The notes under the pieces were generated by a model. The model worked only from the letters and a program-made list of their open reading frames with translations, had not been told where the DNA came from and did not search any database. From assembly GCA_002189035.1 (NCBI GenBank), contig NEEC01000013.1, forward strand, positions 2,480,001-2,544,000: a DNA stretch of 64,000 bases, read 5' to 3'. This document shows positions 3,831 to 44,300 of the stretch, piece by piece. This DNA is from Utricularia gibba. Lineage: Eukaryota; Streptophyta; Magnoliopsida; Lamiales; Lentibulariaceae. The first letter of the stretch is position 1; each line of letters opens with the position of its first letter. The translations under genes and the position numbers were made by a program.

Positions 3831-5269
3831 TCAAGGAAGGATCCTGCGCCGCCTACGAGGGGTCTCTCTTTTCAGGAACATCTTTTCTTGATCGTTGAGT
3901 GGTCTGGACGAACCATCGGCTTCACTGACAAACTTGAAGCCACCACCATTTCCACGCTTGCCCTTTGTGCCAAGCTTCTCCACTGTGAAATTCCAGCCAT
4001 TGGAGGGACGCCTCCTGCTGTACTTGTGGCTTTTTACCTCACCGGCCATCTGCACGGAAACATATACACATGGCATCAGATTACATTAAAAGTAAGGCTT
4101 CATTAAAGAGTACTGCAGCAACAGAGGGTACCATCATTTTACTGAAATTCATCCTCTGAACAAACTCCTGGTACATCATTTCATCCTCCTTCATCGAGAT
4201 TTCGTAGTGCACCTCATCAGGATCACGGGTGGTTCCATCCCAGCCTTCAGGCATGACTTTGAAATCTGGTTTGTATGGAAGAGTTGCGACATGGAATTCC
4301 CGGTCATGGGAAATGAAAAACCTGCATACATAAAAATGAGGGAAACTTACTAAAATGTAGCATCTGGATAAGAGTATGTTCACTAGACTAGATTCGAAAA
4401 AGAAAATTAAACATGAGAAAAGTAAAAGCAAAAGTATCTACACGATACATAACAGAAGAGGCAAAAAACACGAAATTTGTAGATCAACTAAGCTTACTCA
4501 GGACATGAATCCAGCAGCAGCTCAATGGAATCATCTAATGGACGACCCAGCTTCTTTTCCTCCTCTTCCTCAAGCTCCTTTAACCATAAAATTGCATGCA
4601 CTCGCTGCCTCATAATCCTGTACTCCTTTGCCAATCTTTCAACAGTATACACCTCGGGGTTCTCTTTGTGCTTTTTATACATCTCTGCCTTTTCTGAGTC
4701 CTTCAAATAAGATCCCCTTGCACCAGGTTCCCTCACCTTCCACACAAAATGCCATGATATGTCCATTACAAGGAATGAGAAAAATTAGTGAACTCAGAAA
4801 ATGTGAAACACCAAGATTTCACCTGCTTCATCAGAACAGTGATTTCATCCATCCTATCGTCCCATCCATCCACAAAGGCTTGGGATTTGCGGTTCTCCGC
4901 TTCCAAGTCCTTTATCCTCTGCATCTCATCGTCCGTCCACCTGGCATTGGAGTACCAATTCTGCCTCCCCTTCTCACGGGGCTTCCCTTTTTCCGAATCG
5001 GAACTCACCTTCTGCCCAATTACTTCCCCATCAAAGTGGTCCTTGGTCAGCCCAGTCGACCAAGAAGAATCCCCCACGTCCCAGCCCAAAGAATCGTCTC
5101 CTAAAGAAGCGATTCCACCGAAATGATCCATTGAATCTTCCCCCTTGCCGCTCCCATCATTTTGCGTCGAGAAGGATCTTAGGCGTGGGATGATCTGTTG
5201 GGAGACCTTTCCAAATGCAGCGGCAGAGTTGAAGCGGAGCTGTGCCAGCGGACGAAGAAGCGCTGGCAT
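3831..5269 (-). CDS. GCD1: Protein GAMETE CELL DEFECTIVE 1-like, mitochondrial
   Basis: Mitochondrial protein needed for gamete function in rice and Arabidopsis (family knowledge). I believe it carries the Bot1/mS45-type 'eukaryotic mitochondrial regulator' domain, which would make it a mitoribosome small-subunit factor. Coding exons 5269-4823, 4736-4498, 4321-4132 and 4049-3831 join in phase to 364 aa. The N-terminus, MPALLRPLAQLRFNSAAAFG, is Arg/Ser/Ala-rich and lacks acidic residues, as expected of a mitochondrial presequence. The central ARWTDDEMQRIKDLEAENR and RIMRQRVHAILWLKELEEEE segments are the conserved core. The C-terminus is basic (KRETPRRRRRILP). The start was chosen because it opens the presequence; upstream in-frame codons offer no ATG in a better context. 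It is divergent from the PAXX-like gene, with only 369 bp between the start codons. Confidence 0.9.
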
Positions 5270-5638
5270 TTCCCCCTGCGTATGAAGAACACACCTGCGC
5301 GGAGGGAGCGATTCAGTGGGGGAAGAAAGCAGCGAGATACGTATTGGGCTAGCCCTAACACTATTGAACATATGCTGACCACAATTCAGCCACAATTACT
5401 GGGCCAGGGAAATTGGGCCATCATAATTAAAATATTAACGAAAATTAAATTAAAAGGAAATGAAAATAGCAGAATTATTTTTTTTTCCAAAATAAAAATT
5501 AATTTGATATCAATTAATATCATTTGCTGGGATGGGTATTTCTCTGTTTAATTAAAATATATTACAATTTTTTTATTTTAATTTTTTTAAAATAAAATAT
5601 AAAAATGTATGAAGGCTTCTTAGAAAAAGCAGTCTCGG
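5270..5638. promoter_or_regulatory. Short divergent promoter region, GCD1 / PAXX-like
   Basis: The 369 bp between the two opposite start codons must contain both 5'-UTRs and both promoters. 5430-5600 is strongly AT-rich with T and A runs. No TATA box is clearly placed for either gene. Bidirectional use is inferred from geometry only. Confidence 0.4.
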
Positions 5639-8206
5639 ATGGGTTTGGAAGGGTTGAATCCTGTATTCGGTAAAGTATTTGCAGATGCCGATCGGACGCC
5701 CGGGGAGCCGATTCCGTTTGTCTTTCAAGTTTGTGGCGGCGGCGAGGGTGATGAGCTCAGGGTCAGTGCCTCCGACTTTGTCTCCAACACGTTTCGGGCC
5801 GTTCTATCTGGGACCCAACTTGAGGACCTGGTCAGTTCTCTGTTAATATGTGCTCTTTCTCAGCTTCTTTCCTTGGATGTTTCGGCAGTATGTTGTCATG
5901 TGATGATTGGTATTTGCTTGATGGACTCTGCTGAAGGTTGCATGTTTGAAAACAGTAGGCACCTCTTGTTGCTAATCAGTTCATGTAATGATGGGCACTC
6001 AATTGTTAGGCTAGTCTTATTGGAGTTTTTTTAGGTTAAATCTGCTCTTAACGTTTAGCTCAGAATATTTTTGGGAGTAGATGTGTTTGTTCGGAATGAC
6101 TCATCCGTAGATGCCGTTTTTGGGGAATTCTTGACATGTTCACGCTGCAAGCTACTTTTGCTCTAAAAGCCTACCTGCATATAATAAGTTTAACGCATAT
6201 TCTACGCAACATGAAATCAAATGATTCATGATGATTCTTCTTATATTGATAGAGGGATGATACTGGAATCAGTGGCTCATTGTCTGATTTTTTGGCTTAT
6301 TTTGCAACATCGCTGAGTTCTGACGTAAAGCTCATTTTCGGGGATGGATTGGCATCAGAAGGTGAAGTAAGACGTTCATGCTCTCAAATCTGATTTGGCC
6401 CCCCTTGGTTTCATTATGAATAGTACAAACTGAATGTTGGGTTAGCTGGAAACTGAATGATGGTGGGTTTCCTCATCTCATTTCAAAATCTTTTTCGTTC
6501 CTATTCTTTATCCTCGTGGGAAAGGTAGTCGACTTGGTAGCTGAATGTTGTCCTTGATGCGACACGTAGAGATGCATTAGGTCAACTGAACATAGCCAAT
6601 TTTGGATGATAACTTTTTACCCTGCATTTACTCCCTTTCCGGAGCACCCTTTCCCGTGTAGGTATCATATGGATTCCGTTTCCTACTTCATTATCTTATT
6701 CAGTGTTGAATGAAATTGGAAAGGCTCTAAGGTGCTTCATTGGAACAATTTTTAGAGTGAATCAATATTAAATGCTTGAAATTACTGTTCCCTTCTAATT
6801 GTAGGCAGTTCTTGTGCAAGAATGGTTTCTCAAAAGGCAAAGGGACTGCCGAAGATTTGTATACGCCTTGAAAAACTTTTTGGCGCTGTTGCTGCTGAAG
6901 TGAATGCCATCCTTGCACTAGAGTTATACAATGAATTCAATAAGATTCAGCAATCGCTTGAAGAAGGTGTTTCTCCTTTTATGAGAATTTACACCTTTCT
7001 TTTATTCATGGTGAAAACGTTGTTGATCAGATGGCAGGGTTTTCGTGACTGAAGCTCTTTGTTCACTGGATACTATTGTGTGATGGTATTTTAGAAAGAA
7101 TACTCAGATCTAACTGAAGTATCTTTTATTAGCAGAGCAAAGAAACAAGGATCAGTTAATGAAACTTCTGGATGCTAAAGAGGTAAAGGTCACCATTTGA
7201 TGATTTGTTAGTCTTGTTTTCATGCTGAACTATGAGTTACTGAGTTGTGTACTTCCAGAGTCGGCTTTTGGAAAAAGTTAACTGACCTAGTCTCTGTATT
7301 CCTTAGCACCTTGCTTTTCTCAATAATATGCTGCCTTTCTCTGAGAAAAAACGAACGGGGTCATGCATCTAACTTCTTTATTATTCCATGTGTGAAGATG
7401 TCAATTTGTTGATTGTGGACTAACACGAGCAAAAATGTATTGGGCTGTTACTTTTCCTCTTAATGGTGCTCGTTGTAAATAACTGGCAGGAAAAGTGCTC
7501 GAGTTTAACTCAACAGTTGGCCACGCTGATGAGCCCAAGAAAGCGGCATTCTATGAATACTTCCAGCACAGGAAACTCTGATTCTTCTTCCACTATGGCT
7601 TTGCATGATTCACCAGGTATCTATAGTTCTCGAGGTATCCAGCGTCCACATCAAGCTTGACTTGACTCCGAACTTTGCTCTTTTTCTGGGTGTTCGTTTT
7701 ACATTTTAGACAGCACTATTGAGGGAGGTGCTTGGGGCTAGGAGAAATGTAAATTGTTTTGTTAGAAACAAAATGTCCCGCTAGTCCCTTTTTGTTTTTC
7801 TTTTGGCAATGGTCACTGTCCTTCCCTCTCACAAATCTGTCAACTACTTTACAGATAAGAGGGATCCTGGACACCCGAACATGAGAAGAGGAACCAACCG
7901 CGTTGCACCCACACACCGCAGGTTTCCTTTTTGCACCCAATTCTTTTATCTGTTTCATCAAGAAATTCCCATGTAAAGCCTTCCCACGAGAGGCAGAAGT
8001 ATTGGCTTTCCTTCTGAAGTATGTGTTCAAACTCCATCCTCACTGGAGCTGAGTAAAGAAGCATCCCTTTTCAGAGTAGTAGAATTTGTACTTGCAGTAT
8101 AACCCCTTGAATGGTGGTGATAGGTGAATGATGGGCAGTTGTTTTGACAGGTCTAGACCAAGGGGAGCTCTTCTGCACTACACAGAGGATGAAGAATAGA
8201 AGGTAA
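5639..8206 (+). CDS. Candidate plant PAXX (XRCC4-superfamily, non-homologous end joining)
   Basis: Six exons (5639-5830, 6253-6361, 6805-6966, 7136-7182, 7490-7616, 8151-8206) join in phase to 230 aa. Residues 1-115 look like a small beta-rich head domain: FVFQVCGGGEGDELRVSASD, then FRAVLSGTQLEDL, then SLSSDVKLIFGDG. A heptad-patterned helix follows (about 120-170, including AEVNAILALELYNEF and EQRNKDQLMKLLDAKE). After it come a LATLMSPRKRH motif and a Ser-rich tail. This order (head, coiled coil, SPRK-like motif, flexible tail) and the spacing of head motifs resemble human PAXX (204 aa), a Ku-binding end-joining factor. The match is from memory of architecture and short motifs, so orthology is an inference. 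The 3' end is uncertain: an alternative last exon at 7710-7741 would give a shorter tail. Confidence 0.65.
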
Positions 8207-9317
8207 ACCAGAATTCAGCACATGTTTCTCTTATTTCCCTCTTTCTTCGTGAATGACATCTAATTTATATAATTATTTAAAATGCTAAATGAACATGTTT
8301 TGTTTATTAGTGACAATTTAAATCCTAAAATATACTTTTTGTTTGTAATTATTATTATTTTATAAATTATAATTTTGATGATAAATATTTTATTTGTTTG
8401 AATAAAATCACATATTTCATTCTTCATCCTCCCCCATTTAAAAACTCCCAAGGGAGACGGAGGGAGAGAGCGGTAGAGGAGAAGAATGAATCGAAGGCAG
8501 GCGATGACCGTTCTCCTCCTTTGCGCGACGGTGCAGATGTCTTCCGCGGCGGTGCCGTGCAGATTGCAGAGAGCATGGCCATTCAGTACGCATAATGCGT
8601 TGATTTTGTGTGATGTAATTAGGGGCAACTCCGATCTGATCTGCCTAACGAGAATGACTTGTCGCTCACGCAACTCAGATTCCAAATTTCACACACGACG
8701 ACTTTGTACTTTGTAGGGGTAGTCGTAGTGACATGATCCCTATAAATTATTTTGCACGTAAATCAGACTTGTGGTATGATTTTGAATAGTAACCTAGAAT
8801 GTTTGAAAATCAATCATCCTATGTATAAAATTTTTGTCTTAATGTGTTAGAGATATGTTGGTATGATTAAATAACCATCCTATGTTAATATGCATGACAT
8901 CGCTTACCTTTGATCAATAAAATATTTTTTAACGGCAACTACTTTATAAAATAATACATAAATTTTAATATGTATACATATATATATATCTATAGTAAAT
9001 ATTGATATTTAGTATTATAAATCGTATATCCAAATGATATTTTTGTTTGATTTTAATTTAATTAATTATAAATCATTGAAATAATTTTTTATCCTAGAAA
9101 AGTTTTTTTTATTAGACTATGTATTATGAATAAATAATAATAATACATGCCATATTATATATGAATTTAATAATAGTAACTTCTATTAAATATATTATAA
9201 ATAATACTATTTTTCAAATCATTTATTTGTATATAAAAATACTCCTTATATTGTAGTTTGAAACATCATACATAGGAAAACGACAAGATTGCATATATTT
9301 CCCGAATCATGTATCTA
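8207..9317. other. AT-rich intergenic region
   Basis: About 1.1 kb between the PAXX-like and AZG1 genes. 8230-8430 and 8720-9300 are extremely AT-rich and without coding potential. 8430-8720 is GC-richer and holds a purine-rich leader-like stretch followed by a 76-codon open frame from the ATG at 8486. Confidence 0.5.
8486..8716 (+). other. Open frame with signal-like N-terminus, possible gene relic
   Basis: A 76-codon frame begins MNRRQAMTVLLLCATVQ, a basic twin-Arg start followed by a hydrophobic stretch and small residues (SSAA), resembling a secretory or thylakoid-lumen targeting signal. A TTTAAAA box lies about 50 bp upstream, with a GA-rich leader in between. The rest matches no family I know, and no downstream exon is evident. 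It may be the surviving 5' end of a lost gene, or chance. Confidence 0.2.
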
Positions 9318-9344
9318 TTTATATATCTAGAGAGAGAGAGAGAG
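9318..9344 (+). promoter_or_regulatory. TATA-like box and (AG)8 leader of AZG1
   Basis: TTTATATATC at 9318-9327 is followed directly by an (AG)8 run (9329-9344) and then about 50 nt to the ATG at 9395. GA-rich leaders are common in plant 5'-UTRs. Assigned from position and sequence only. Confidence 0.4.
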
Positions 9345-9394
9345 TCCACGTCACAGAATTTTGGTTGGAAGCAGGGGTGAGAGATTCCATCTCC

Positions 9395-11056
9395 ATGGAT
9401 ATCGAAGCTGCAGAGTCCACTCCCACGATCCTCGCCCGCCTCAACTCCTCCGTCGCAAAAACCTGCGTCGGAAAATACTTCAAGCTCGCCCAACGCAACT
9501 CCACTTTCACGACCGAGCTTCGTGCCGGCACCGCCACATTCCTCACTATGGCCTACATCCTCGCAGTCAACGCTTCCATCTTATCCGACTCCGGAGGCAC
9601 ATGCTCCGTTGCCGATTGCTTCCCCCTCTGCTCTGATCCCAATATCTCCGCCGATGATTGCACTGGACCTAATCTCCGTCTCATCCTCCCTGACCAGTCC
9701 TGCAAATTCGATCCCGTTAATCCCGGATACGCCCAATGCCTAGAGAGGACGCGCCGGGATTTAATCGTCGCCACCGCAGCCTCGTCCCTGATCGGCTGTT
9801 TGATCATGGGTGCTTTCGCGAATCTTCCCCTGGCCCTGGCGCCTGGAATGGGTACCAACGCCTACTTTGCTTACACCGTGGTCGGCTTCCATGGATCCGG
9901 AAGCGTGCCCTATAGAACTGCTCTGGCTGCGGTCTTCGTTGAGGGGTTGGTTTTTTTGTTTCTCTCAGTTGTGGGTTTGCGTTCGAAGCTGGCGAAATTG
10001 GTTCCCAGGTCTGTGAGGATCTCTTCATCCGCCGGAATTGGATTGTTTCTTGCCTTCATCGGATTGCAGGGGAATCAAGGTGTTGGGCTTATTGGGTACA
10101 GCTCCTCTACGCTGGTCACTCTCGGTGGTTGTCCTGCTTCTAAAAGAGTTTCTCTAGCGCCGGTGATGGCTTACGGGAACGGCACCGTGGCTTTGATTCC
10201 CGGCGGCACGGTTTCAGGGCCGATATTATGCCTGAGTGACCGCGTTATGAGCCCCACTCTGTGGCTTGGAGTTGTGGGGTTCGTGATTATCGCCTACTGC
10301 CTCGTGAAGAATGTAAAGGGCGCCATGATCTACGGCATCGTCTTCGTGACGGCAGTTTCTTGGTTCAGAAACACCCAAGTCACGGCGTTTCCACATACGC
10401 CGGCGGGTGATTCCGCCTTCGATTACTTCAAAAAAGTCGTCGACGTCCACAAAATTGAGACGACCGCCGGCGCGTTAAGCTTCCACAGGATCGGAACGGG
10501 GAGATTTTGGGAAGCTGTGGTCACGTTTCTGTATGTGGATATACTGGACACCACGGGTACTCTGTACTCAATCGCTAGATTCGCCGGATTCGTGGACGAC
10601 GCCAACGGAGAATTCGAGGGACAGTACTTCGCTTTCATGTCGGACGCGACGGCCATAGTAGCGGGATCACTACTGGGGACATCGCCAGTGACGGCGTTCA
10701 TCGAATCATCTACTGGGGTCAGAGAAGGTGGGCGGACGGGGATGACCGCTCTCACGGTGGCGATGTATTTCTTCCTGTCCCTGTTTTTCACGCCACTGCT
10801 GGCGTCGATTCCCTCGTGGGCGGTCGGTCCGCCTTTGATTCTGGTCGGAGCCCTGATGATGAAGGCCGTGATGGAGATCGATTGGACGGACATGAAGCAG
10901 GCGATTCCGGCGTTCTTGACGTTGATTCTGATGCCGTTGACTTACTCGATTGCGTACGGGTTGATTGGAGGAATTGGATGCCACATCCTCCTCAACAGCT
11001 GGGATTGGGCGGTTGCAATTCTGAGGAAGCATAAGCTCCATGGAACTCTCAACTGA
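9395..11056 (+). CDS. AZG1: Adenine/guanine permease AZG1-like (purine and cytokinin transport)
   Basis: Multi-pass plasma-membrane permease of the AzgA branch of the NCS2/nucleobase-ascorbate superfamily. Plant AZG proteins import adenine and guanine and also move cytokinins (family knowledge). A single uninterrupted exon encodes 553 aa, as in the intronless Arabidopsis gene. Diagnostic segments in order: [20 protein letters not shown], the Cys-rich loop [63 protein letters not shown], then [20 protein letters not shown] near the C-terminal half. About a dozen hydrophobic segments are visible. The ATG at 9395 (MDIEAAES) is the first in frame; codons upstream of it contain no ATG. The sequence is GC-richer than its surroundings, as plant transporter exons often are. 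AZG1 fits better than AZG2 because of the length and the Cys-rich loop. Confidence 0.96.
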
Positions 11057-11812: not shown

Positions 11813-14418
11813 ATGGAGGTAGTTGAATCAGTTCATGATGTCCCCGTCCAAGAACCCCCCGGGGATGATTTCTCGGCATCAAATTTGAAGTGGGTGAAGC
11901 TCCAGACAGCAGACAGATGCGAGGATGTGGCTATAATTCCTTATAATCGGGTTGATGCCTTTATAATTGGAGAATGTTCAAACATCCAGTTCCCGACGAG
12001 ATTTCATATTGAGAGGGGTAGAAAGCGAGCGAGAGGAAGCTTAAAGCAGTGCAAACCTGATGAATATTTGGAATACAGGCTGTGAGTGAAATTTCACTTC
12101 CCTTCTCATCCTCTCTTATATAGTTCCCTCCAGATGATGTTTGCAGAAGTGCTGCATAGCCACTTTTTTTTTTCAATCATGGCCATAACCCTGGCAGCTC
12201 ATTCACAGAAATTGAATATGACTTGCGCTGATTTTCTACTTGCATTATAGATTAGGCGTCAGTATTTGTGTTTTTCTTGATTACATTCCTTTATTACTTC
12301 AGGTATTGGTGTTCTTTTGGGCCTGAGAATTATGGAGAGGGTGGAGGTATATTGCCAAGTAGAAGGTATCGACTAAACACTAGGAATCGTGCAGCTAGGC
12401 CTCAGTCCATGCGTGGATGTACATGTCATTTTATAGTAAAACGGCTCTACTGCCGCCCATCACTGGCACTTCTCATATACAGTGAAAGACGTCATGTCAA
12501 TAAAGATGGATTTGTTTGCCATGGTCCTCTGGATAGAGATGCAATAGGTCCTGGCGCAAAAAATATTCCATATGTTTGTAGCGAAATTCAACAGCAAACA
12601 ATGTCAATGATATATCTTGGCTTACCAGAAGAGAATGTCTTGGAGAAGCACCTTGAGGGTATTCAACGTTATTGTGGTTCTGATGCAAAGGTTGATACTC
12701 TTGCTTCTCAATATGTGCATAAAATGGGGAGGATCATCAAGCGGTCAACTCATGAACTGGATCTAGATGATCAAGCCAGCATTCGCATCTGGATTGAACG
12801 CAACAAAAAGTCTGTGTTCTTTTATAGAGATACACCAGAAACAGGTCCCTTTATTTTGGGCATTCAGACAGACTGGCAGCTGCAGCAGATGATTCGTTTT
12901 GGCCATCGAAATATCATAGCAGCTGACTCAGCATTTGGAATAAAGAGGCTAAAGGTCTGAGAATACCATGGGCGCGCGCCCCTTCATCATAGTCTCCAAA
13001 GCATATTCTGAACTTGTATCACATGTTTGTTTCAGTACCCACTGTGCACACTTCTTGTGTTTGACTCAAGACAGCATGCGCTTCCTGTTGCTTGGATCAT
13101 TACCTGTAGTATCGCAAAGTCAGATGTCACAAAATGGATGGAAGCTCTACTTCATCGAGTGCATTTAGCTGACCCTGGATGGAGAGCAAGCGGTTTCATT
13201 ATTGATGATGCTGCTGCAGAAATTGAGCCAATAAGGCAATATATTTCTCATTTATTTTTTCTGTTTAAAGATCACATTTCTTTCATTCAACCACTCACTT
13301 TGTTTGCATTACTTTCAGAGAACTTTTTTCGTGTCCCATCTTGTTTTCTCTCTGGCGGATCCGGAGGTCATGGCTGAGGCACATTATCAAGAAATGCTCT
13401 AATATTGAAGTACAAAGAGAAATGTTCAAACGCCTTGGGCAGATAGTGTATAGCATTTGGAGTGGACTGGATCTTGCCACCGCCATTGAAGAATATTTGC
13501 TGGATTTCGCTGATCAAGCTTCCTTTTTGCAGTACTTCAAGGATTCGTGGTTGCCTAAGCTTGGTCAGTTTTTTTTTTTTTTTCTTTTTTCTATTCATCT
13601 CAGTTGTTCCTATCATGTCACTCTACTAAGTTACCAATACTGCAGAAATGTGGCTCATGTCAATGAAGAATCTCCCACTTGCTAGCCAGGAAGCTTCTGG
13701 TGCAATAGAAGCTTACCATGTGAAGCTCAGGACTATTATCTATGATGATTCACATCTTGATTCTCTTCCGAGGGTTGATTGGCTGGTTCACAAGCTGACA
13801 ACCGAATTACACTCTTGCTATTGGCTTGACCGTTATGCAGATGAAAGTGATTCTTTCTTGAATGTGAAGGAGGAATATATTGCATCTACTTCTTGGCATC
13901 GAGCCCTTAAAATACCAGATCATTCAGTTTCCCTGGATAGTGAGAATCACTTGTTTGCTGAAGTTGTGAGTCAGAAGGATAGCAATTTAAAACGGCTGGT
14001 ATGGAATCCTGGTTCTGAATTTGCCCACTGTAATTGTGATTGGTCCCTGAGTGGAAATCTCTGCAAGCATGTGATCAAGGTCAACATGGTTTATGAGAAT
14101 CAGCAACTTCGCCAAACTTCTATGTCATTTCAGTCACACAAAAGTATCCTGATTGATGTGTGGAACAAACCTATTGATGACTCGGTTGATCTGGATGTTG
14201 CAAATGCCTTGATGTACCAAGTTCTCGGCCAAGTGCAGAATCTTGTCGAACTTAGTAACACAGGCAATATAAGTCTTATAGTGGATAATATGCATCCAAA
14301 ATGGGGTGGAAGAAAAGCCAGAACGAGCTCCTTCAGTCAACTGCGGTCAGTTTCTAGGTATCAAGCTTCCAATTCTGGATCCAGGAGAAGGAACAGCAGA
14401 TCATCTCGTTTGAGATGA
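11813..14418 (+). CDS. SWIM zinc-finger protein with MULE-transposase-like domain
   Basis: Resembles the plant 'SWIM zinc finger family protein' typified by Arabidopsis At1g60560, a presumed domesticated Mutator-like transposase of unknown nuclear role. Exons 11813-12081, 12303-12954, 13036-13235, 13319-13563 and 13646-14418 join in phase to 712 aa. The N-terminal third has a Cys/Trp-containing region (YWCSFGPENYGEGGG, RGCTCHFIVKRLYCR). The centre is transposase-like (NIIAADSAFGIKRLKYPLC, DSRQHALPVAWI, RASGFIIDDAAAEIEPI). The SWIM finger CNCDWSLSGNLCKHVIKV has the CxC...CxH pattern. The tail is basic and Ser/Arg-rich. The third intron uses a GC donor (AAG|GCAATA at 13235/13236), the only non-GT donor seen in the window. 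An ATG at 11813 opens the frame after a leader intron. The 3' end converges on RFC1. Confidence 0.9.
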
Positions 14419-22032: not shown

Positions 22033-22050
22033 TGAGGAGGTCCTCGCTCC

Positions 22051-25000
22051 ATGGATGCCGATCCCGAACGGCTCCTCTCTTTCTCGGGGCAGGACTCGTG
22101 GGAAGACATCAGGAACTTGAATGTCGACTCCGGCACGCCGACCAATCCACTACCTCCCAGGATCTTTGATCGCTTCTACAGTTTGTCTTCATCCGAGGAC
22201 GAGGAAGACAACGCAGCTTCCTCTTCCAGCTATCACCGTCGGCTGGATAATATGCTTCAGTTTCTCGACCGCAAGCTATCAACGCAGTCAACCTCTCAGC
22301 ATCCGCTTCCCGTATTTTCAGCTTCTGGTATTTTTAGGCCGCCGCTACGAGGTCCTGTTAATCTGGATCGGCCGCCTGCGCTCGAGATTCGACCGCATCC
22401 GTTGAGGGAGTATCAGGTGGGGCGCTTTATTAATTGTCTTGCGTGCGTTGATGATGGTAAAGAGTTACAGTTGTGGGCGGGATTAGAGTCTGGTATCCGG
22501 GTATGGGATTTGAAGAATGATTTGTACGGTCGATCCGAGTCTGACAAAGGCGAGGAAGAAGGAACTCTGAGATACTGGCAGTCTGAGAGTGTGTCTGCTG
22601 CTACTCTCTGTCTTTTAGGGGATGGAAGTAATAGCGTGGTTTGGAGTGGGCATAAGGATGGGAGGATCGTATGCTGGGATATGTTGACTTTTTCTATTAA
22701 GGCTCATGGAACTGAGAAAGTTGCTGGGGCCAACCGGTTTAAGGAAAGGTTTTCATGGCAGGCACATCGAGGGCCAGTTCTAACTGTTGCTGTGAGTTCT
22801 TACGGTAATCTTACCTTCGGTTGTTCAAAATTTAGGCGTTTGAACTTTTTTGAATTGCCTAATTCTATGCTTTCTTCTACACTTGGTTAATTTTTTTTCT
22901 TTTCTTGTTAATAATTTCTATTATATTTATAAAAATGCGAATGCTAGTATCTTTAACGTCCATGTGTTGGAGTTTTATTTATTTATTTTTCATGTTGTCT
23001 TATTAATATCCCTGCCTTTCTTCCAGAGAAAAACACAATTAAAATGGTGATATGGGGCAACGTATGAAAATTAGATACTAAACTACTAAGCTAGCATGTA
23101 GACTGAAACATCTAATGTGGAATGGAATCATCACCATTTTAAAGGTTCACTAGACATCATGTTGTAAGGATGATTTATTCTTTTCATGCTGTCTACATAG
23201 TGTCAACTTGGCGCATGGCACATATCTCTATGTTCTATCTTTTACCTTATTTGTTTGAATTTGTTCTGCTGTACCAAATTTAAACTGGTTGACTAATCTC
23301 ATACATGCCATACTTGCATATTGATTAGTCAGGATCCATCTTGCTTTTGAAGTAATTCAATTTGTTCGTGATTGTGAGATTATTATTTTCTCTTTTTTTT
23401 TTGTTATCCAAAATTTACCAGCTCTATAGATTGTATGGACATAGGAATTAACATTTTGTACCTTTCCTGCTTGGACTTAGGGGATATCTGGTCTGGGTCT
23501 GAGAATGGTTCACTGAAGATATGGCCTTGGGAATCAATTGAAATGTTACTTTCCACGTTGACTGGAGAGCAGGACATGGCTTCTTCAGTGATAGAGAAGT
23601 CATTTGTGGACCTTAAAGCCCAAGTTAGCCAAAACTTAATGTTCAGTAATATGTTTACTTCAGATATCAAATTTATAGTTTCTGACACTGCCGGAGCAAA
23701 TATGTGGGTTTCCAGCTACCAGATATTTTCCTTGTGGTGAGACCGCCTAGTCATTTTTTTTATTTTAATTATCTGCAATTTTCAACACCTACTTTTGTTT
23801 TTATTCATAATAAGGAGTTCAAGTTTCAGTGCAGTATGTTACCTTAAAATAATGACATATATCCTACCTTAGAGCATCAGATGTGGCTCTGTCTCTCAGT
23901 CATTTTCACAATTTATTACCAGTATTGTGAATTTCCAAAATCCATATTGAAATCAAGTTAAAGAAATGGGGGATACTGCAAAACTATCTGCTGTATTGGC
24001 AGTTAAAATGATTCAGCCGCTATTGTCTACATGTTCTCATGAACTTCTTTTTGAAAAAAAAAAAAGGGTACCCTATTTTTTTTAGTGTATGAAGAGAACT
24101 CTATATACTTACAATTTCTTGATTCACACTGTGAGAGGTGTCACAGAGAAACTGTTGTTGGATACTGGACTGTGTCAACTACGATCATGTCTTGTTTGTA
24201 TGCTTGAGTGGTACTTTTGTGCTGCACCGTGAACTTTGCTCCCCTTCTGATTATGTATCCATCTTACTTTGTTCATTTCCAGGGATGCTAGAACTAGAGA
24301 CCTACTTAAAGTTTTTAATATGGATGGCCAAATTGACTCATCACTGGATCCTTCACCAGAAGATGAGATGCGAGTGAAAATTGGATTTAACCAAAAGTCG
24401 CGAGGTCCTTTTAGTTTCTTTCAACGTTCACGTGATGCTATCTTTGGAGCAGCAGATGCTGTACTGAGAGCTACAGTTAAAGGTGCTTTTGGAGATGATA
24501 GTATGCGTTTTGAAGCATTGACTTCATCTGTTGATGGGATGATCTGGGCTGGATGTGCAAATGGAGTGGTTTTGCAATGGGATGGTGATGGTAATCGAAA
24601 ACGTGATTTTCAGTACCATTCTTCTGCTGTTCAGTGTCTCTCTGCTGTTGGGACTCGATTGTGGATAGGGTACTCAAGTGGAACCGTGCAAGTTTTGGAT
24701 TTGTCTGGTGATTTGCTTGGGCAATGGGTTGCTCACAATAGCCCAATACTAGATTTTGCTTTTGGGGCAGGTTATGTTTTCAGCCTGGCCAATCATGGTG
24801 GTATACGTGCATGGAGCATTACTTCTCCTGGACCCTAGATGATACAATACGTGTAGAGTTGGCCGGAAAAGAATTTTTATATACCAAGCTAGAGACTCTT
24901 AAAATTCTGGTGGGAACTTGGAATGTTGCTCAAGAAAGAGCAGATGCTGATTCACTCAAAACGTGGCTGGGGTCAGCTGCATTTGATGTTGATATTGTTG

Positions 25001-28000
25001 TTGTTGGGTTGCAAGAGGTGGAAACAGGTGCTGGCTTTGTTGCTATGTCAGCCGCTAAAGAAACTGTACACTTCTCTTCCATGCGTTTTTATTTATACAT
25101 CTGCTTCCTGACCTTGACTGCAAATGATCTTGTGAGGTTTTCAAAAAAAAAGGAAAACTTTTGTCGTATAGTATTGGTATTGTGGCTTACAATTTCACAG
25201 TTTGGTAGAAGTTATGATTAGTGGTATGATAATTTTACCTTTCAACCTATTAATTGATCGGTCTAGTTGCCTTTCTATCAGTTTCATTAATTTTGTAAGA
25301 AAACCAATTAACTGACCATCAAATAACCAGTTCACTGAACCATTAATACACAACTTCTTTTGTTTATATGATCCTCTACTACTTGTCTACTTTTTCTTAT
25401 TTTATAAGAATAATGATGCTTCGCTTTGCTTTTATGCTTATATGCTTTCATTCCCTGCAGATGGGCCTTGAAGGTAGTTCTGTTGGACAGTGGTGGCTAG
25501 ATATGATAGGAAAAATGTTGGAAGAGGGATCTTTGTTTTCACAAATTGGCTCCAGGCAGTTGGCAGGCTTGCTTATCTCCATGTGGTTAGTTTGGGATTG
25601 CAGCATTCAAATAAATCCAATATTTAGTTTGTATAAATATAGGATTCCTTGCTTTATCAAGTTAAAATACATATGGCGCTAAATTAAATTTCAATACTCT
25701 TGCATAGCACTTTCTCCTTCTCTCACTCTTTTTTATGTTTTATTTATTTGATTTCTTACAGAAATGTAATCATATAGGGTGAGAAACAGCATCAAATGCT
25801 ACACTGGTGATATTGATGTTGCTGCGGTTCCTTGTGGTCTTGGGCGAGCCCTCGGGAATAAGGTATATTGACTTGGAACTTATGCCATTTCTCATTCTGA
25901 AGTCTTGCTTTGTTTCTTTACTTCCTTATCGCTGCAGTACCTTATGGTTTTTTTCTATTTCATTATTTTTGATTGGGATGATAGATAAGTGATACTTTTT
26001 GGTGTTAACAAAGCATTTACATTCATTTCTTATTTAATGCTGTTAATCAGCTGCATGTAAATCCTACCGCAGATTTCCCTGCCCAGTTTCAGAATGCCTG
26101 ACAACTTTCTGGCAGACATTTTTGTCTTTCTAACGAAGCATTTCTTCTTTGTAACTGCAACACAGGGAGCCGTTGGGCTAAGAGTGAGACTTTATGATCG
26201 AGTAATGTGTTTTGTTAATTGTCATTTTGCTGCACATTTGGATGCTGTAAATCGCCGGAATGCAGATTTTGATCATGTATATCGAGCAATGGCTTTTACT
26301 CGGCCATCCAACTCCTTAACAGTGAATGCTGGTATGCTGCCTTGTTTACTCTTATGTTTATTGCTTGCTGGATCCATCTTATTACTATCACTTCATTATG
26401 GGTCGACCTTGGGGGTGGTTCTCTCCATTGTAACAGGCTTATCATCCACGATTTTGCTTCGCGTCCCAAGTGTATGTACTTGCTCGGGTGAATTCTGCAT
26501 TCTAGCTTTTTAAGTTTCCTTCATTAAGATATAGTAACTTCCTGTGCTGATGCAGGCTCTTGGAGCTTACCCTGATGAAGAAATGCCAGAGCTTTCTCAG
26601 GCAGACTTGGTTGTGTTTTTAGGGGACTTTAATTATCGGCTTGATGGCATATCCTATGAGGAAGCTAGGGATTTCATTTCTCAAAGATGTTTTGACTTGT
26701 TGAAAGAACGAGACCAGCTTCTTGCTGAAATGCAAGCTGGAAATGTTTTCCAAGGAATGCGGGAAGCTGTTATTAGGTTTCCTCCAACTTACAAATTTGC
26801 AAGGAATGTTCCGGGATTATCAGGTGATGACAAAGAAAGATTGTTTTTGCTGAATGTTCTGCCTTCATTCATATTATTGTGTTACTAATTTAGGGTATGA
26901 CTCTGGTGAGAAGAAACGAATCCCTGCCTGGTGTGACAGAATTCTGTATCGTGACAGCTGCTCAACATCATCATCTTCCTGCGGCTTAGACTGCCCTGTA
27001 GTTTCAACCGTACTGGAGTAAGTGTGCCATTCACTTTCTCCAAAGGTTTTTTAATTGAGTTTTTGAACATTTTTGTTGTTTTCATGTTTATCATTTTCCT
27101 TCTTGGCTCGTTTGTATTATCCACTAGAAAGCTCACTTAAACCAGATTCTTTATAAAACATTCTCTGGGGGTGATTCCTTAGAAACGTTGTCTGTGTTAC
27201 AGCTTAGAAGGGTGACCAGAGAGAGCTGTGTGTCTCATAAACCATTTTACCATGCGTTTTTTCCCTAGTTTTTTGTATCTAAACCTCTGGCATCATTTTA
27301 TTTCTTTGCTCCTCAGTGCATCGTTTATCCTGTGCCATGTTACATAACCTACTTGAGTTACAAACCCTTCACAGGTATGAAGCATCCATGGATGTAACTG
27401 ACAGTGATCACAAGCCTGTCCGGGCCATTTTCAACGTAGAAGTTGCTCGAGTAGATGAGGCAATAAGAAGGCAGGAGTTTGGTGAAATCATCAGATCAAA
27501 CAGACGGATCAAGCATCTGCTTGAAGTATTAGGCGAAATACCAGACGTCATATTGAGTACAAATACCATAGTCCTTCAGAACCAGGATACATCCATATTG
27601 CATATCACCAACAAATGCAAGGAACATGCAGCTTTGTATCAAATCATGTGTGAAAGTTTGACTATCATTGAGAATGGAATTGCATCTGACCATCGGCCAA
27701 GAGGTTCCTTCGGCTTCCCTCGCTGGCTTCAGGTGCATCGCTTAACCTCCCTCTCCTATTGCCTACTTTTTGTCCACATTTTTATAAAAGACTAGCTACA
27801 CTTTGTAGGCTGGTGAACTTCATTTATGAATCTTTAATGAAAATAATACATCTTAAGCTTTCCAAGTGCAGATTCTTTGACCCTTTTTTTTATCTTATTA
27901 GAAAGTGCACGCGCATGCGCTTGGATAATTACAATCCTCATATTTCATTTCTGTACCGTTGTACATTCCTTGGCTTCTTTCCTTCTCTGTTATGGCATGC

Positions 28001-41300: not shown

Positions 41301-44300
41301 GCTAGTTTGTGTTTAAGATCATCAGCGAGTTGGAAGAAGTGATCAAAATAAAACTTTATTAGATTTTTTAGCGATCATTTTATATCAAGTAATAATCTTG
41401 ATAGATATGCTAGTGGTGTCTAGAATTGAATGATTTTTTTTGACCAGATACTGTGCTGACAATCCGGGTCTCTTCAAAAATGCAAACACAGCATACATTC
41501 TTGCATATGCGGTTATTATGTTGAATACTGATGCCCATAATCCTTTGGTGTGGCCAAAAATGTCAAAAAAGGACTTCATTCGCATGAATGAAATGAATGA
41601 TGCTGAAGAATCTGCCCCTGTAGAACTTCTGGAAGAGATATATGAATCAATTGTGCAGGAAGAGATAAAAATGGATGTTGATTCAGCTGGATATATGAAA
41701 ACTGGTCAGCAGAAATCAGATGTTGGAGAGAAAGGTCTCATCAATATTCTCAACCTTGCACTTCCTAAGAGGACATCTTCAAATGATTCTAAGCCAGAGA
41801 GTGATGTAATAGTCAAACAAATTCAAGCTGTGATAAGGGACAAGGGAGGGAAACGTGGGGTATTTTACACTTCTTACAGGGTTGAACTTGTACGCCTTAT
41901 GGTGGAAGCAGTGGGATGGCCGTTACTTGCTACCTTTGCTTTTACCATGGGTGAAATTGACAACAGACCAAGGATCACCCTTTGTATGGAAGGATTCAAG
42001 GATGGTGTGCACATAACTCATGCACTTGGAATGGATACCATGCGTTATGCCTTTTTGACATCATTGGTTAGGTAGTTCACTTCTGCTAGTGAGTTTTATT
42101 ATCTTATGTATCTGAGTGGGTAATGCATGTGTTTATATTTGTGATATTTTTTTATGTTCTTAGGTGTGTGATCTGTATCATTCTACATTTTATTATGTAG
42201 GTAGAAAATGTGCATAGTTTGATTTTCAGAAAAAACAATTCTAACTGCATATATAACTTTATTTTCTCATATGCATCATTTTCAAGGTGCCAAATAACTT
42301 TTGGGTCAGTGAGTTGTTTGACTTTCCATAATTAGGACTCACCATTGGTGGTTCAGCTCAATTTTAAGAGTTGAGTTCCTTATTATTTTACGTGTATGCA
42401 TTGAATATTGTAGGTATAACTTCTTACATGCACCAAAAGACATGCGTGGGAAGAATGTAGAGGCACTACGCACTCTTCTTTCATTATGTGATACTGAGAT
42501 ATATGCCTTTCAAGACTCATGGTTTGCCGTCTTGGAATGCATCTCGCGCCTAGAATATACAGTCTCCTGGCCTCCTATGACTGCATCTGTTATGCAAGGA
42601 ACAAATCAAATCTCAAGAGATTTTATTATACAGTCGCTGAAGGAGCTAGCGGGAAAGCCAACTGAACAAGTTTTCTTGAATAGCATCAATCTTCCCAGTG
42701 AAGTGGTGGTGGAGTTTTTTACTGCATTGTGCACTGTTTCGGCTGAGGAATTAAAGCAGGTTCCTGCTCGTGTATTCAGCTTGCAAAAGGTTGTTGAGAT
42801 TAGCTATTATAATTTGGCTCGTATCCGCATGGTAATTCCTTTTCCTTTTAGTTATGATTTGTTTAAAATTCGGGGCCTTGGATTTTTCGTTGTCTTTGTT
42901 TTCTGCTTTGCTCTTGATCTGGTTGTTTTAATATTTTATGATATTTACGCATTTTCCTGTTTACTTTTATTATACTAGGAGTTATCCCTTCGTTTAATAT
43001 TTTTATTCTATTGAAGTGGTTTGTTTTTGGACCTTGGATTGGTTGCCCCTCAGCATATGCCTGCATTGAACCACTGAAAATTATTGCCATTGTTTGTTAG
43101 GTTTGGGCAAGAATATGGTCTATATTAGCGCATCATTTTATATTTGCTGGGAGCCACCCTGATGAAAAAGTTGCTCAGTATGCAATTGATTCTCTGCGGC
43201 AACTTGCAATGAAGTATTTGGAGCGGGCTGAACTTTCAAACTTCAGTTTCCAGAATGATATCTTAAAGCCATTTGTTGTTCTTATCAGAAGCAACAGAAA
43301 TGATTCTATTCGAAGGCTTATTGTGGACTGTGTTATTCAAGTATGCATTTTAGCATTTCATCTTAATCTTATCTTGTCTTCTGTGATATTTCATATTTCA
43401 AATATTTTCATTGGTACGACAGATGATCAAATCTAAAGTTGGAGGCATTAAATCTGGTTGGCGAAGTGTATTCATGATTTTCACTGCTGCTGCTCATGAC
43501 AGTATGGAAACCATAGTTGAGAGTGCATTTGAGAGTGTAGAACATGGTAAGTGCCAAATTACTCTGTAGTAACTTGCTTTATTCCAGAGCTTCAGAAAGC
43601 CCTTCTGACGCAAACGAATACTGCAGTTGTTTTGGAACACTTCGATCAGGTTGTTGGGGACTGCTTTATGGATTGCGTCAATTGTCTAATTGGGTTTGCC
43701 AATAATAAGGGTTTCCATCGCATAAGTTTGAAGGCAATTGCTCTGCTTCGTATTTGTGAGGATCGCCTTGCAGAGGTTTGTCATGAATGTGAAATCCTTT
43801 TTACAAAGTGTCTGCTAAATTCTGTGTGTTATTATCCCATTTATTTTAGTTTCTTATGGCTTTATTGGCTGTTCTCAGAAATTATTGATCATAATAATTA
43901 CATCAATAAAGTTTCATAATATATAAAGAGAACCGGATTAGAGAATATTAAAAGTAGATGGGATAAAATCTGGATTTTAATAATCTTGGCGTTTTGTTAC
44001 TTCAGAGAGTGGTCATAGCTATTCATCTTTTGGATATTTTTGGTTATCGAAAATTTAAAATCACATGGGTTTCTAATTTTGAGCAGAAAATGAATAGAAA
44101 ACTAAAACATCTTTTGAATGGCTCATTCCATCATCAGTACGAAGCATTTTTTTATATATACATGGCCAGTAATCAGCAGTACGAGAATGTTGTATAAGTT
44201 AAAGTGGACCTCACATATGCCAGAGGTGCACTATAATAACAAATATTGTTCATTAGCAAAACTATCCTTGGAATTTTGCACAGAAAGTACAAAAGGAGAG

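Follow-up and report, generated by a model that had tools for sequence, protein, structure and literature searches.

A probable PAXX orthologue encoded by a seven-exon gene of Utricularia gibba

Human PAXX (C9orf142; PDB 3wtf, 4wja, 7zwa) consists of a head, a short coil and a tail, in that order, and is a member of the XRCC4/XLF/PAXX superfamily. In human complexes, Ku70 is bound by the PAXX motif and Ku80 by the XLF motif (PMC10413649). An earlier human study reported PAXX in all vertebrates, with most invertebrates and yeast lacking it (PMC4339890). A plant PAXX was described by Khan and Ochi (2023, Plant J 116:58-68, doi 10.1111/tpj.16359), whose paper is cited by PMC12707071 and PMC12636532. 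As summarized in the first of these, a 2025 review, the plant protein binds KU70, KU80 and XRCC4, and the title quoted there calls its function XLF-like. Plants are reported to be without either XLF or DNA-PKcs (PMC12707071). Their main route for repairing double-strand breaks, which also influences the outcome of genome editing, thus has PAXX as an accessory factor. The suggestion in an earlier note on this DNA that a plant PAXX might still be undescribed is out of date, given the 2023 publication.

The window is a 64,000-nucleotide stretch of Utricularia gibba (contig NEEC01000013.1, positions 2,480,001 to 2,544,000), and all coordinates below refer to it. To assemble the coding sequence, neighboring AG and GT choices were varied until one open frame was obtained, and a single combination among those tried was consistent. 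Positions 5639-8199 on the plus strand contain a genuine multi-exon gene, with a coding sequence predicted as seven exons, all bounded by GT-AG introns, and encoding 250 amino acids plus a stop. The earlier note had correctly placed a multi-exon gene here, giving its extent as 5639-8206; the coding sequence ends at 8199. Its model of six exons and 230 amino acids is slightly off, since the sole consistent splice chain has seven exons and 250 amino acids. The exons are as follows, with alignments referring to the solved protein 8p26.

5639-5830, plus strand: coding exon 1, which opens the head and covers residues 1-64, supported by an open reading frame and a GT donor; aligns from 8p26 residue 7 on.
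6253-6361, plus strand: coding exon 2, central portion of the head, with AG/GT borders and frame kept; matches 8p26.
6805-6966, plus strand: coding exon 3, in which the head ends, with the VSQKAKGLPKI block (nearly identical in 8p26), and the long helix begins.
7136-7182, plus strand: coding exon 4, coiled-coil helix, EQRNKDQLMKLLDAKE.
7490-7616, plus strand: coding exon 5, end of the coil, MSPRKR and a Ser-rich linker.
7855-7921, plus strand: coding exon 6, basic tail, covered by the 8p26 alignment.
8151-8199, plus strand: coding exon 7, carrying the stop and, at the C-terminus, the conserved (R)RSRPRGALL..EDEE, a candidate Ku-binding motif; covered by the 8p26 alignment.

When the 250-residue protein was compared with solved structures using phmmer, the sole real match was 8p26_A (238 residues), which aligned with residues 4-249 at E = 4.2e-30, the runner-up having E = 0.11. 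Pairwise identity is 39%, and the match, which includes the last 20 residues, is far beyond chance. The VSQKAKG(L/M)P block encoded by exon 3 is almost identical in the two proteins, and both carry HRR(S/T)R(P/K)RGALL near the C-terminus. We take 8p26 to be the crystal structure of Arabidopsis thaliana PAXX that lies behind the work of Khan and Ochi, in which case the window protein is orthologous over its full length to the plant PAXX that they described. The deposited entry, which has ten chains, bears the molecule name U2 small nuclear ribonucleoprotein auxiliary factor-like protein, and a splicing protein of that kind would be the reading that follows the name of the best match. That reading is extremely unlikely: neither the window protein nor 8p26 is hit by any RRM, UHM or zinc-finger model, the layout of head, coil and tail suits the XRCC4 superfamily, and the molecule name was probably assigned automatically by a database.

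By alignment, the head is encoded by exons 1-3 and the helix by exons 3-5. The domain order given in the earlier note (head, helix, tail), which is also that of human PAXX, therefore stands, but the support it drew from an SPRK-like motif at the end of the coil does not. SPRK occupies residues 185-188 of the window protein, which has extra length after the coil relative to 8p26, in the segment around SPRKRHSMNTSSTGNSDSSS; 8p26 has a gap at that place and no SPRK. Because the motif lies in a segment missing from 8p26, it is no family feature, and SPRK was rejected as a PAXX signature. Single-sequence structure prediction was applied to individual exons. Exon 3 alone was modeled largely as a single long helix spanning residues 14-52 (pLDDT about 95); exon 1 alone gave a poor model. 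In fold searches with Foldseek and VIA-align 2, the model of exon 3 alone had no match, and that of exon 1 alone returned only noise, with 8p26 absent from the results.

For comparison with the human paralogues, a two-sequence plant profile (the window protein and 8p26) was aligned to the head-plus-coil regions of human PAXX, XLF and XRCC4, after the human sequences had been checked against PDB. Human PAXX gave a colinear alignment of 66 columns (33-99 to 30-95), within the head, with 2 of 200 shuffles scoring as well; the sequence relationship between plant and human PAXX is weak (hhalign E about 0.07-0.1). Human XLF (NHEJ1) yielded just a 10-column match that was outscored by its reversed sequence, leaving its head without a credible alignment to the plant protein, and nothing in human XRCC4 head-plus-coil aligned with the profile. 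The three-way comparison thus points weakly to PAXX over XLF or XRCC4. In Pfam scans, the PAXX model (PF15384) matched neither the window protein nor 8p26 (chance-level hits only), and an exon-wise genome search with it found nothing, its control being equally silent. PF15384 appears not to extend to plant sequences, and its silence bears more on annotation than on orthology. The failure of the model may explain why plant genes lack a PAXX label, and automated annotation is likely to miss the present gene for the same reason.

Taken with the full-length match to 8p26, the weak preference for human PAXX over XRCC4 or XLF supports the identification made in the earlier note. The window protein is very probably a plant orthologue of PAXX, with an N-terminal head, a presumably dimerizing coiled coil, a flexible tail and a candidate Ku-binding motif at the C-terminus. 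A different member of the superfamily (XLF, XRCC4 or SAS6-like), with a role in end joining and not orthologous to animal PAXX, would be the other way to read the protein. We consider this very unlikely given that the longest of the three colinear alignments is with human PAXX, that the genome contains a separate XRCC4 match and that the name PAXX was reportedly chosen by Khan and Ochi on structural grounds. What speaks for it is the weak sequence link to human PAXX, a C-terminal motif nearer to that of XLF than to the Ku-binding motif of PAXX, and the XLF-like function ascribed to the plant protein in the title quoted by PMC12707071. Read as PAXX, the gene is an ordinary orthologue of the plant end-joining factor described in 2023; it adds no discovery, and is useful for annotation as one more orthologue.

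The conserved feature of the tail is the basic C-terminal motif HRRSRPRGALL..EDEE. Human PAXX ends in KSKKPAGGVDFDET, from which the plant tail differs in having no VDF. In sequence, the end of the plant tail resembles more closely the human XLF terminus, VKRKKPRGLFS (sequence checked): each combines a basic cluster, RG and a hydrophobic pair (KRKKPRGLFS in XLF, RRSRPRGALL in the plant protein), although in the plant protein an acidic stretch comes after the motif, whereas the XLF motif sits at the terminus. As HRR(S/T)R(P/K)RGALL is kept in both plant-type proteins and is similar to the XLF terminus, it is a candidate Ku-binding motif, and the plant tail may bind Ku80 in the manner of XLF. 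An XLF-type Ku80-binding motif on a PAXX-type body, so that one gene would unite the two factors of animals as far as the tail motif is concerned, is conceivable but somewhat doubtful.

By analogy with the published plant protein, we infer dimerization, binding to Ku and XRCC4, and stimulation of ligation. PAXX would form a dimer through its coiled coil and be recruited by its tail to Ku at a double-strand break, where the tethered dimer would bridge to XRCC4 and stimulate end joining by DNA ligase IV/XRCC4, thereby filling the role that XLF has in animals.

The genome (100.09 Mb, 516 contigs) was searched for PAXX and other end-joining factors. PAXX is single-copy, with one locus. Ku matches were found at two places, XRCC4 was represented by two adjacent, colinear matches below the family cut-off, and a LIG4-domain match exceeded its cut-off. 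XLF was not found in the same genome; as the control for this search was also silent, absence of XLF is not demonstrated.

Other genes in the window were noted as follows. The upstream neighbor is arranged head-to-head with PAXX, and the two appear to share an intergenic region of <400 bases.

4495-5395, minus strand: upstream, divergent gene, one exon of which matches Bot1p (mitochondrial regulator/ribosomal subunit type, E 3e-8).
9257-11053, plus strand: downstream gene on the same strand as PAXX, of the xanthine/uracil permease family, in one open frame (PF00860).
13012-14415, plus strand: SWIM zinc finger (PF04434) encoded in open frames, possibly of a FAR1/MULE-derived gene.
22036-27792, plus strand: gene resembling those for inositol polyphosphate 5-phosphatases, matching the IP5P C-F models for a beta-propeller and an Ig-like domain.
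41434-42072, plus strand: Sec7 domain exon (PF01369, E 3e-24), probably part of an ARF-GEF gene.
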